Source: Candidatus Merdibacter merdigallinarum
GTDB taxonomy: Bacteria > Bacillota_I > Bacilli_A > Erysipelotrichales > Erysipelotrichaceae
NCBI GenBank assembly: GCA_019118705.1
Contig: DWYK01000004.1
Location: 1 to 40,843 of the forward strand
DNA length: 40,843 nt
Direction of reading: 5' to 3'
Part shown: one piece after another, positions 15,005 through 19,610 of the stretch
Numbering within the stretch: position 1 is the first letter of the stretch
Layout of the letters: each line of letters begins with the position of its first letter
The notes under the pieces: generated by a model
What the model was told of the DNA's origin: nothing
What the model saw: only the letters and a program-made list of their open reading frames with translations
The model's database searches: none
Translations under genes and position numbers: made by a program

Positions 15005-16570
15005 TTATCGGCTGATCTTGCGTTTCACGCCGAACGCAGCTGCCAAAGCGGCAGAAGCTCCCAGCAGAATGCCCCACAGCGCCAGCGTGTCCCCGATGCC
15101 CGTTTCCGGATCATCCGGTGCGGTCGGCGTTTGCGAATCCTGCGGTTCATTTGGATCGACCGGATCCGTCGGATCCGTCGTCTTCACATCCCGACGGTAT
15201 TCCAGCACGATGTGATTATCTTCCGCACGGATCGTCAGCGTGATCGCATCTTCCGATGATACCCACGTGTACGCATTGCCGTTGTACTCGCTGACCTTTT
15301 CGATATCGGCGACAGCGATCACATCACCGACGTTGCCGCTGATCGGATCGCTCAGGACCGTGCCATCCAGCACGTACGCTCCACCATCCGTGCTCGTATA
15401 ATAACGATGTTCTACGGTATACGTCGTATCGATTCGCGACAGCGTGATGACATTGCTGTAGCCAAAAGCATAGTTCATGTAGGAGTTCCCCATGCCCGGG
15501 CCATCCAGCGCGATCGCCGTACGGAATCCATTCTCCCCCAGGGTCTCTCCCTTGTCCAGCGCATCGGCATTGGCCAGTGACAGGAAATACGCATCTGCTT
15601 CCGCATACAGCGCACTGTCCGTATCCATGTAATCACCGACACCGTGGACTCTGGTGAAGTCGGTTCCGCTATTCGGGTTCATCTGCTCACAGATCTCCTC
15701 GGAGAAGCCAAGGCTCATCAGATCCTTGTAGAAATACTCATAATGGATCGTTGCCAGCTCTGCTTCCGGATAGAGCACCTGTACCCGCAGATCCCCGTCG
15801 CTCGTCGTAGCGGATGTGCGGACAAAAGGTTCCATGTCCGGATACTGGCTCAGCAGCGTTTCCAGGACATCGGCAGGCACTTCATAGATGGAATTGTGTA
15901 CGGTACCGAAGTCATTGCCGTAGCTTGGGCCGCTCTGTTCGATAAAGTCGGCCCAGTCCGCATAATCGACACCGTCTTTCGTCCGATAATAGTCCAGGGT
16001 GTAGGCCGTCAGTGCATCTTCGCCCTCATAGCCTTCCTCTGCCAGCCTGTCATAAATGCCCAGCAAATCATTGAGCTGCAGACGGGTGCTGCCGCCAAAC
16101 AGCGAACTGATCACCTCATCGTCCGTGCTCATGGCGGCGATGGACGCATACGGGATCTGCTTGCCGTCAAAGCCGACAAACGGGCTCAGCTCTTCCTCGC
16201 TGCCAAATCCAGGTGTGCTCACAGAGAGCCCGCCGCTTTGGTAAGCGTAGGTATGTCCGGACGCATTTTCGATGTACACGTCCGCCTGGAACTTATCGCC
16301 CGGCACCAGGTAAGCTTCATGCGCATCGATCATCTGTATAAAATAGTCACTGACTTCTACATCGACCTCTGCTGCATCCGTGTTCTCATTGATGACAAAA
16401 TACAATTCATAGCGCTGTGTCTCATTGTTGAATCCGGATCGTTCCGCATCAAAGGCGACATCCGGCTGTTCATCCGCTGTCGTATCCTGGGCGAACACGG
16501 TCGTCGATATCGTACCGACCGCCAACAGGAACGACATGGCCAAAGCCGCTGCTCGTTTTACATAGTTCAT
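15005..16570 (-). CDS. Sortase-type cell-wall surface protein
   Basis: This 521-residue protein has a Sec signal peptide (cleavage likely after VFA, residue 27), a large extracellular region, and a C-terminal sorting signal: PETG, a hydrophobic stretch, then KRKISR. The sorting motif reads DPETG instead of LPXTG. A Pro/Asp/Thr-rich wall spacer (TTDPTDPVDPNEPQDS) precedes it. The segment from about residue 385 (TVEHRYYTSTDG ... ITLTIRAEDNHIVLEYRRD) resembles the MucBP/SHIRT-type beta repeat of surface adhesins. The central 300 residues match no family I recognise. GGGAGG lies 9 bases before the ATG. No sortase gene is nearby. It is probably an adhesin or wall-linked binding protein of unknown ligand. 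Confidence 0.8.
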   Translation of the reverse strand: MNYVKRAAALAMSFLLAVGTISTTVFAQDTTADEQPDVAFDAERSGFNNETQRYELYFVINENTDAAEVDVEVSDYFIQMIDAHEAYLVPGDKFQADVYIENASGHTYAYQSGGLSVSTPGFGSEEELSPFVGFDGKQIPYASIAAMSTDDEVISSLFGGSTRLQLNDLLGIYDRLAEEGYEGEDALTAYTLDYYRTKDGVDYADWADFIEQSGPSYGNDFGTVHNSIYEVPADVLETLLSQYPDMEPFVRTSATTSDGDLRVQVLYPEAELATIHYEYFYKDLMSLGFSEEICEQMNPNSGTDFTRVHGVGDYMDTDSALYAEADAYFLSLANADALDKGETLGENGFRTAIALDGPGMGNSYMNYAFGYSNVITLSRIDTTYTVEHRYYTSTDGGAYVLDGTVLSDPISGNVGDVIAVADIEKVSEYNGNAYTWVSSEDAITLTIRAEDNHIVLEYRRDVKTTDPTDPVDPNEPQDSQTPTAPDDPETGIGDTLALWGILLGASAALAAAFGVKRKISR

Positions 16571-16774
16571 GTTTTTCTCCTCCCATTCCTGATGTAACGA
16601 GTTCGATCTGCGATTTTCGCAACGTCGGCTCTCTCCAAATTTCTGTCAAAAAGTAAACCTTTTGATAGAATTCTACAAATCCCGTATGTTCATGGACATG
16701 CACAAAAAGTGTCGGATTTCCGATAAGAATACAGTGATTCTCTCTTAAAAAACGGAGGAATCGCTCGCAGGTGA

Positions 16775-16803
16775 TTGTTTTCCTGTCGTCTGGGAGGTAT
16801 AAT
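16775..16803 (+). promoter_or_regulatory. Promoter of the candidate small RNA
   Basis: TTGTTT (16775-16780), a 17-base spacer and TATAAT (16798-16803). No gene lies downstream on this strand before a strong terminator at 16894. Confidence 0.65.
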
Positions 16804-16809
16804 ATTTTA

Positions 16810-16918
16810 TAGAGATGTGGTTATCAATACGTTTACCTTTTGAAACTGCCATGCGCAGTTTCTTTCATACCTATGCGCGAATCTGTGGAAAGTTGCCGGG
16901 CGGCAACCTTTTTTTTCG
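16810..16918 (+). ncRNA. Candidate small RNA of about 110 nt
   Basis: Between two minus-strand genes lies a complete plus-strand transcription unit: promoter 16775-16803, an internal hairpin with arms GAAACTG and CAGTTTC (about 16840-16861), and a strong terminator GTTGCC-GGGC-GGCAAC with eight T. The reading frames that cross it run through the terminator and have no ribosome binding site, so a protein is unlikely. It does not show the conserved parts of SRP RNA, RNase P RNA, 6S RNA or any riboswitch I can recall. Function is unknown. Confidence 0.55.
16894..16918 (+). terminator. Terminator of the candidate small RNA
   Basis: GTTGCC-GGGC-GGCAAC-C followed by eight T. The T-run is on the plus strand only, so it does not serve copA. 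Confidence 0.85.
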
Positions 16919-16967
16919 CAAAAAAAACAGCCGTTTCCTGTACGAGGACAGATGGATCGGCTGTTTT
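16919..16967 (-). terminator. Terminator of copA
   Basis: AACAGCCG and CGGCTGTT arms with a 24-nt loop, followed on the minus strand by an uninterrupted T-run. Confidence 0.75.
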
Positions 16968-16976
16968 CATTTCTGT

Positions 16977-19610
16977 TTATGCTTTGAAACGGCGAAGACG
17001 CAGGGCGTTGGTCACCACGCAAACGCTGGAGAAGGCCATCGCCGCACCGGCAAATACCGGTGAGAGCAGTGGTCCGCCAAATGCATAAAGCACACCGGCG
17101 GCGATCGGAATACCGATCGAATTGTAGAAGAAGGCCCAGAAGAGGTTTTGATGAATGTTGCGGATGACTGCCTTTGACAGTCGGATCGCCGTTGCGACAT
17201 CCGCGATGCCCTCTTTCATCAGGATGATATCGGCACTTTCCACTGCGACATCACTACCGCTGCCGATGGCGATGCCGACATCGGCCTGTGTCAGCGCGAC
17301 GGCATCGTTGATCCCATCGCCGACCATGGCCACTTTATGTTCATTCTGGAAGCGTTTGACGACTTCCCCTTTTTCCTGTGGCAGCACTTTGGCGATCACT
17401 TCATCGATCCCTGCCTGTCTGGCGATCGCATGGGCGCTCAGCGGATGATCTCCGGTCACCATGACCGGCGTGATCCCCATATCCTTCAGCTGTGCGATCG
17501 CCTGTGCCGTATCGCTCTTGAGCTGGTCAGCGATGACGAAGAAGCCGCAGAACTGCTGATCGACCCCTAAGGCGATCACACTGTATCCCTGTCTGGCAGC
17601 CGCTTCCATCTCTGGCAGCGCAGAGCGAATGTCGCAGCCGCTCTGTTTCATCAGCTCCTGATTGCCCAGTACGATCGAATGACCTTCACTGTCCGCACGC
17701 AGGCCCAGACCGCTGAGCGTTTCCACATGTTCGATGGCAGGCAGCTGAAGCCCTTCCTGCCGGCATTTTTCCAGGATCGCATGAGCCAGCGGGTGTTTGC
17801 TGCCCTGTTCCAGCGTACCTGCATGATACAGTGCCTTTTTTGGATCGTCGCTGACGATCGAGAGGACGACCGGCTTTCCTACGGTCAGCGTACCGGTCTT
17901 ATCCAGCAGGATCGTATCGATCTCACCGGCGTTTTCCAGCGCTTCTCCGCTCTTCATGAAGATGCCGAGCTGGGCGGCCTTGCCGCTTCCGACCATGATG
18001 GCCGTCGGGGTGGCTAATCCCAGCGCACACGGACAGGCGATGACCAGCACGCTCACGAAGATCTGTATGGACAAAGCGATGTCACCGCGGGCAATGTACC
18101 ACAGGATGCCTGCCACAACGGCGATCGCCATGACCGTTGGCACGAATACCAGTGAGATGCGATCGGCGATGCGGGCGATCGGCGCCTTCTTTCCCTGCGC
18201 CTCCTCCACCAGCGATATGATGTGTGAGAGGGTCGTATCCGCCATCTCCTTCGTACAGCGGATGAGCAGGCGGCCGTCCAGGTCGATCGTTCCGCCGATG
18301 ACCTCTTCTCCCGCACGCTTTTTGACCGGCATGCTCTCTCCGCTCAGCATGCTCTCATCCACGTTGGCGCTTCCTTCCACGACGACCGCATCGATCGGGA
18401 TATGATCGCCGGGACGCACCACCAGCAGATCTCCGACGGTCACTTCCTCCACACGGATCGTCATTTCCCGGCCATCCTTATACAGGACGGCCGTATCCGG
18501 TCGCAGCTGCAGCAGCGCGGAGATCGCTCCCATCGACTTTTTCTTGGAAACCGCCTCCAGGTGCTTGCCGAAGCGAACCAGTGCGACGACGACACCGGCT
18601 CCCTCAAAATACAGCGCGTGCACCGCATGCAGATTGCCGGCGGCGATCTGGGTCAGCGAATAGATCGAATACAGATACGCGCTCAGCGTACCGATGGAGA
18701 CCAGCGTATCCATGTTGGGCACCCGATGCAACAGCGCCGGTATACCGCGAATATAGAAATCACGGCCCATGAACAGGATGACCGTCGTCAGGATCAGCTG
18801 GATGAGCGCAAAGTTCAGCGGATGTGTCGCATAGTGGATGATGTCCGGAAGCGGCAGCGGGACCGGCAGCATATGCGACATGCCGATGTAGAGAAGCAGT
18901 GCGCCCAGCATCAGCATGAGGATCATGCCCCGGTTGCTTTCCTTTTCTTCCTTCGCTGCCTGCTGTTCGCGGATCACCTCGGCCTGAAAGCCGCCTTTGG
19001 CGATCGCCGCAAACATCTCGCTCTGCTTGACCCTGCGCGGATCATAGACGACATGCGCCTGTTCGTTCACCAGATTGACGCTGGCCTCTTTGACGCCGTC
19101 CAGCTTTGACAGCATTCGCTCACAGGCAGACGAACAGCTTGCACAATGCATGCCGGAAATATGAAAGTTCGTCTCTTTCCACTGTTCCTGTTCCTTCTCT
19201 TTCAGATGATATCCGCCTTTGCTGACGGCCGCTTCCCAATGAGCGACATCCTTCTCTCCGACATAGCGCACATAGACCTGCTCATTCACCAGGTTGACCT
19301 GGGCATCGATCACATCCGGCTGTTTCTTCAGGATGCGTTCGACCGCTGCACTGCAAGCAGCACAGTGCATCCCTTCGACTGCCAGATTCACTTCATTTGG
19401 CGCCTCGATGCGCTCCAGCTCATACCCGGCCTTTCCCAGCGCCTGCACGAGCGGTTCGAGCGTCAGATAGCGATCCGAGGTCACCGTCACCTGTTCACTG
19501 ACCAGATTCACCTGCGCATCCTGGATGCCCTCCTGCTTTTTCAAGATCCGTTCCACTGCACTGGCGCAGGCGGCACAGTGCATGCCTTTCACACGAAATG
19601 TTTCGACCAT
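16977..19610 (-). CDS. copA: Copper-exporting P1B-type ATPase with three metal-binding domains
   Basis: CopA pumps Cu(I) out of the cytosol using ATP. The 877-residue protein starts with three heavy-metal-associated domains (about 1-65, 70-135, 145-210) carrying GMHCAAC, GMHCAAC and GMHCASC. The membrane core follows: TGES loop LSGESMPV, the transmembrane Cu motif CPCALGLATPT, the phosphorylation site DKTGTLT, the SKHPLAHAI motif of P1B pumps and GDGINDAVAL. CPC and the HP motif give monovalent copper (or silver) as substrate. Three N-terminal domains is more than the usual one or two in Bacillota. A GAGGAGG ribosome binding site precedes the ATG. csoR ends 10 bases upstream, so the two are one copper-inducible operon. 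No separate copZ chaperone gene is adjacent. Confidence 0.96.
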   Translation of the reverse strand: MVETFRVKGMHCAACASAVERILKKQEGIQDAQVNLVSEQVTVTSDRYLTLEPLVQALGKAGYELERIEAPNEVNLAVEGMHCAACSAAVERILKKQPDVIDAQVNLVNEQVYVRYVGEKDVAHWEAAVSKGGYHLKEKEQEQWKETNFHISGMHCASCSSACERMLSKLDGVKEASVNLVNEQAHVVYDPRRVKQSEMFAAIAKGGFQAEVIREQQAAKEEKESNRGMILMLMLGALLLYIGMSHMLPVPLPLPDIIHYATHPLNFALIQLILTTVILFMGRDFYIRGIPALLHRVPNMDTLVSIGTLSAYLYSIYSLTQIAAGNLHAVHALYFEGAGVVVALVRFGKHLEAVSKKKSMGAISALLQLRPDTAVLYKDGREMTIRVEEVTVGDLLVVRPGDHIPIDAVVVEGSANVDESMLSGESMPVKKRAGEEVIGGTIDLDGRLLIRCTKEMADTTLSHIISLVEEAQGKKAPIARIADRISLVFVPTVMAIAVVAGILWYIARGDIALSIQIFVSVLVIACPCALGLATPTAIMVGSGKAAQLGIFMKSGEALENAGEIDTILLDKTGTLTVGKPVVLSIVSDDPKKALYHAGTLEQGSKHPLAHAILEKCRQEGLQLPAIEHVETLSGLGLRADSEGHSIVLGNQELMKQSGCDIRSALPEMEAAARQGYSVIALGVDQQFCGFFVIADQLKSDTAQAIAQLKDMGITPVMVTGDHPLSAHAIARQAGIDEVIAKVLPQEKGEVVKRFQNEHKVAMVGDGINDAVALTQADVGIAIGSGSDVAVESADIILMKEGIADVATAIRLSKAVIRNIHQNLFWAFFYNSIGIPIAAGVLYAFGGPLLSPVFAGAAMAFSSVCVVTNALRLRRFKA

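Follow-up and report, generated by a model that had tools for sequence, protein, structure and literature searches.

The intergenic region between copA and a surface-protein gene in the window, the whole stretch of 40,843 nucleotides analysed here, very probably carries an inverton: an invertible promoter that acts as a phase-variation switch for the surface gene and that was assembled in its OFF orientation. The small RNA that a first-pass annotation had proposed at this place would be the run-off transcript of the OFF state. The region holds paired inverted sites with inverted centres and a promoter between them, the layout is conserved in relatives, and the genome encodes a matching recombinase. 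From these features we infer that inversion occurs, that the recombinase encoded on contig C72 performs it, and that the surface gene is thereby phase variable. In the proposed mechanism, a small serine recombinase would bind both 26-bp sites, cut each at its central dinucleotide, and religate them so that the 180-bp segment is turned round. With the segment one way round, its promoter would drive the surface gene through a leader of about 109 nt. In the assembled orientation, the promoter would point away from the gene, and a terminator would end its transcript before it could run antisense into copA. The surface protein would thus be switched on and off between cells. Coordinates are given in Table 1.

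Table 1. Features of the predicted switch and its neighbours (positions in the window)
Feature	Position	Strand	Details
Surface gene under predicted control, 521-aa protein	15005-16570	-	Ribosome-binding site GGGAGGAG before ATG at 16570
Site A, 26-bp predicted crossover site	16643-16668		CTGTCAAAAAGT.AA.ACCTTTTGATAG; centre AA 16655-16656; palindromic arms
Predicted invertible segment, 180 bp including both central dinucleotides	16655-16834		Same layout in relatives
Promoter TTGTTT-17-TATAAT, predicted invertible	-35 16775-16780, -10 16798-16803	+	18 bp inside site B; reads outwards
Predicted OFF-state transcript, about 108 nt (small RNA of the first-pass annotation)	16810-16917	+	Sequence prediction
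Site B, 26-bp predicted crossover site	16821-16846		TTATCAATACGT.TT.ACCTTTTGAAAC; centre TT 16833-16834; inverted relative to A
Intrinsic terminator of the OFF-state transcript, before copA	16889-16917	+	GTTGCC-GGGC-GGCAAC then CTTTTTTTT (16892-16916)
Terminator hairpin of copA, opposite direction	16919-16968	-	Sequence
copA, copper P-type ATPase, neighbour outside the switch	16977-19610	-	Sequence

The elements from which the small RNA had been assembled are all present. The promoter has a TATAAT and a 17-base spacer, although its -35 matches at only three of six positions and is weak; a comparably good promoter appeared at the same place in 1.5% of shuffles of the segment. Downstream lie an internal hairpin with a perfect 8-bp stem (GAAACTGC-CATGC-GCAGTTTC, about 16842-16862) and a strong terminator whose G+C-rich stem is followed by eight T. 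The unit is on the strand opposite both neighbours, and it encloses no closed reading frame with a ribosome-binding site, the ATG at 16815 running open past the terminator. As promoter and terminator are both real, the short transcript is a fair prediction, and this part of the first-pass annotation stands.

Its description of the transcript as a free-standing regulatory RNA is not supported. No known family had been recognised, and Rfam likewise gave nothing at gathering or loose thresholds, the best loose match being SurA at 19.6 bits against a threshold of 100. The window aside, the RNA sequence has no homologs beyond chance-length matches in 60 relatives and 245 genomes of the family. It is also absent from 84,980 species genomes and from viral contigs in exact-match scans, and from phages and plasmids by BLAST, in collections from which records of the species itself may be left out. 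Neither sequence nor structure is kept in relatives, there being no homolog to align for covariation; in G002, of the same genus, a methyltransferase-like gene directly follows an 80% identical copA in place of the unit. The promoter, hairpin and terminator do form a unit, as a trans-acting regulatory RNA with merely incidental flanking sites would have it, but the RNA lacks conservation and a family, its 108-nt fold is no better than that of shuffles (z = -0.95), and site B itself makes up much of its 5' third. We consider that explanation exceedingly improbable. Nor is the unit free-standing: the promoter is flanked by a palindromic site and its inverted second copy, an arrangement that had been overlooked. 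It is very unlikely that the OFF-state transcript is itself functional, as a phase-variable small RNA made only in cells with the surface gene OFF; if it were, a single inversion would switch the cell from surface protein to regulatory RNA or back.

The clue to the site pair was the single significant match in the search of the 60 relatives, 34 bp on both strands of G045, a genome of another family. The match is a palindrome, and it occurs a second time within the window. The first-pass annotation had held that hairpins and promoter not conserved in close relatives would count against its small RNA; the RNA and its hairpins are indeed not conserved, but the promoter arrangement recurs. What is conserved, as judged from these comparisons, is the putative recombination-site pair with its promoter, which recurs before other surface genes.

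Sites A and B are inverted repeats flanking a short intergenic segment that contains the promoter, and their arms are 86% complementary over 22 bp. With up to three mismatches allowed, the site pattern matches the 2.2-Mb assembly of the own genome at A and B only, and it has no match in 100 shuffles of the window. Each site consists of palindromic arms around a 2-bp core. Because the arms are palindromic, orientation is carried by the central dinucleotide; with AA in A and TT in B, the two sites are inverted. These centres have the geometry of a 2-bp serine-recombinase crossover, which would invert the 180 bp between them. Site B is the poorer copy, with three mismatches to the consensus and arms that are palindromic at only 8 of 12 positions, as might be expected of a decayed switch locked in the assembled orientation by the divergence of this site. 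However, partner sites with four to seven mismatches are common at other loci, and the centres in the window are still exactly complementary, which leaves decay a very unlikely explanation.

The same pattern occurs in 9 of the 60 relatives, with twelve copies in G045 alone, compared with one match in one genome for the reversed control, and for almost all matches a second one lies at a distance of 114-180 bp. All asymmetric centres among these pairs are inverted (AA/TT in the window, TT/AA in G002, GT/AC in G022), with the flanking bases in register; the inverted stretch is only 2 bp in G022 and only 4 bp in G002. Inverted centres between neighbouring bases that stay in register imply an exchanged region as short as 2 bp, and this is the mark of serine recombinases, such as Hin, which makes a 2-bp staggered cut at the centre of its 26-bp sites and for which one core-nucleotide change blocks joining in the inverted orientation (PMC4817059). 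All sites in G045 and G026 (L094-L099, L104-L108) share the centre AT (GTATAC); as this is self-complementary, it does not by itself define an orientation.

In 13 of 15 pairs, including those of the window, G002, G045 and G026, an outward-facing promoter is found 15-19 bp to the inside of one site, through which it reads, in a scan that allowed about 6 to 26 bp from the site and took the best promoter per pair (the gap in the window is 18 bp). Eleven of the 15, the window among them, were assembled with the promoter pointing away from the neighbouring gene (OFF), two are undecided, and the promoter points towards the gene (ON) in G002 and in one G045 pair; there is partial paralogy among the pairs of G045 and among those of G026, and the 15 are not independent events. 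A terminator follows within 260 bp behind the OFF promoter at 4 of the 11 loci, which makes it a local safeguard, in the window for copA, rather than a fixed part. Among the genes downstream of the pairs are those for surface proteins, choline-binding-repeat proteins and tyrosine recombinases, a sugar transferase gene and a signal-peptidase operon.

Two palindromes spaced about 180 bp apart in front of a gene could also be operators, through which an ordinary transcription factor regulates the surface gene with no inversion. Operators leave unexplained the inverted central dinucleotides, the constant spacing between one site and an outward promoter that mostly points away from the gene, the serine-recombinase genes beside pairs, and the contig breaks inside segments described below, and we assign them a very low probability. 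It is also very unlikely that a tyrosine, not a serine, recombinase inverts the segment. Tyrosine recombinase genes do adjoin several pairs in G045 and G040, the own genome has eight matches to that family, and the 6-bp centres in the window (GTAAAC/GTTTAC) are perfect reverse complements of each other. Yet centres inverted over 2 bp in G022 and 4 bp in G002 fit a 2-bp and not a 6-8-bp crossover, serine recombinases stand beside pairs in several genera, and there are pairs in G026, G002 and the window that no tyrosine recombinase gene adjoins. The operator had been our first thought on seeing the palindromes, and the tyrosine recombinase had been suggested by the gene beside a G045 pair; both were dropped on the 2-bp logic and the serine recombinase gene of G022.

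That gene adjoins the G022 pair and encodes a serine recombinase of 203 aa. When the family was searched with this protein and the flanks of 32 serine-recombinase genes were scanned without regard to centres, site pairs were found beside 8 of the 32 (0.5 expected from shuffles), with inverted centres in seven of the eight. The enzymes from site-bearing genomes do not form one clade in a recombinase tree, and co-occurrence alone was therefore not taken as proof. The own genome (G000) encodes a single recombinase of this size, a 201-aa protein with a resolvase domain (PF00239, 100.7 bits) that lies on C72, another contig than the window, and is 86% identical to the enzyme of G002 and 65% to that of G022. 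Directly behind its stop codon is a further site, with centre GT (L141, 5157-5223). From its family and this adjacent site, we infer that the C72 recombinase is cognate to the sites in the window. Among solved structures it matches Sin and gamma-delta resolvase best, with the DNA-invertase entries 4m6f and 3uj3 lower; its closest sequence relatives are not Hin and Gin. One small serine recombinase family appears, on sequence evidence, to run promoter-switch sets across two families of one order.

A third locus in the own genome has a site with centre CT behind a purB-like gene on contig C133 (L195, 1498-1587). At the C72 and C133 loci, the contig breaks off within the would-be segment, 41 and 64 bp past the site; for a site placed at random, the chance of being within 100 bp of a contig end is about 2%. 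Such breaks would be expected if both orientations coexist in the reads, and they are indirect evidence for coexistence at these two loci. The own assembly contains no flipped duplicate of either contig-end segment, and the comparison for a flipped copy of a G045 locus in G058 runs into a contig end. With three loci having three centres (AA/TT, GT, CT), recombination between loci would be prevented.

Flipping the segment in silico places the promoter, a terminator-free leader of about 109 nt, and the strong ribosome-binding site in line before the ATG of the 521-aa protein. This protein matches no Pfam family, and a search for it among named species genomes gave no match; judged by eye, it combines a signal peptide with a proline-rich stalk and ends in a membrane anchor with a basic tail. 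The promoter of the segment faces the gene in one orientation only, with a weaker match left on the opposite strand. This second promoter-like sequence (TTGATA-17-TATTAT, 16827-16799, minus strand, 10 of 12 positions) faces the surface gene as assembled, and its -35 is simply the TTGATA contained in site B. It could allow leaky expression of the surface gene, or an ON state in the assembled orientation.

Switches of this type are already known as invertons. The Hin/hix flagellar switch of Salmonella resembles the window in its 26-bp sites and in carrying the promoter on the invertible segment. The Hin/hix segment is about 1 kb, whereas that of the window is about 180 bp, with the recombinase gene off the segment and an enzyme whose sequence resembles Sin and gamma-delta resolvase more than Gin. 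The Hin/Gin subclass of invertases requires a Fis-bound enhancer. The recombinase of the cwpV and flg switches of Clostridioides difficile, RecV, is of the tyrosine class. Like the predicted switch in the window, these switches give phase variation of a Gram-positive surface component through a short invertible segment (PMC2784873, PMC7446863); unlike that of the window, the flg segment has no promoter and acts after initiation (PMC7446863). The Mpi-controlled invertible promoters of Bacteroides fragilis (Coyne 2003, as cited in a passage of PMC4747536) are functionally alike, but Bacteroides belongs to another phylum, and the own genome and G002 have locus-specific central dinucleotides; the likeness is one of function, site sequences aside.

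Gut invertons have been catalogued with PhaseFinder (Jiang 2019, as cited in a passage of PMC11892184), and, like the window, they have inverted repeats of 10-40 nt and are often near surface genes (PMC11892184). In the defined community of that study, the median number of invertons per genome is 0 among the Bacillus-like Firmicutes; where the study names recombinases beside invertons, they are of the tyrosine type or unspecified, and the word 'serine' is absent from its main text. In the part of the literature searched, there are good accounts of promoter-inversion phase variation for Bacteroides and C. difficile and hardly any for Bacilli-like Firmicutes, and none was found of such a set of serine invertases in Erysipelotrichia. 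OFF-state transcripts of invertons with a terminator will resemble orphan small RNAs in scans of sequence or RNA-seq data.

Several further arrangements were seen in the relatives. In G002, one pair lies behind the recombinase gene and is followed by a gene for a signal-peptide protein. The promoter of its second pair faces a cluster of surface-protein genes, in which a von Willebrand-domain gene comes first and, further on, a homolog of the surface protein of the window (55% identical). The von Willebrand-domain gene is split into two frames (L012, 6223-8454), and it is separated from the homolog by a short IS-like helix-turn-helix ORF. Several pairs in G045 and G040 (L096-L100) directly precede small tyrosine recombinase genes (PF00589); these pairs are possibly invertible promoters that switch other recombinases, in a two-tier arrangement. 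In G059, a pair beside a serine recombinase (L155, 711-861) has changed outer arms (TTACAA...) and the same inner core, which suggests that site arms and recombinase evolve together.
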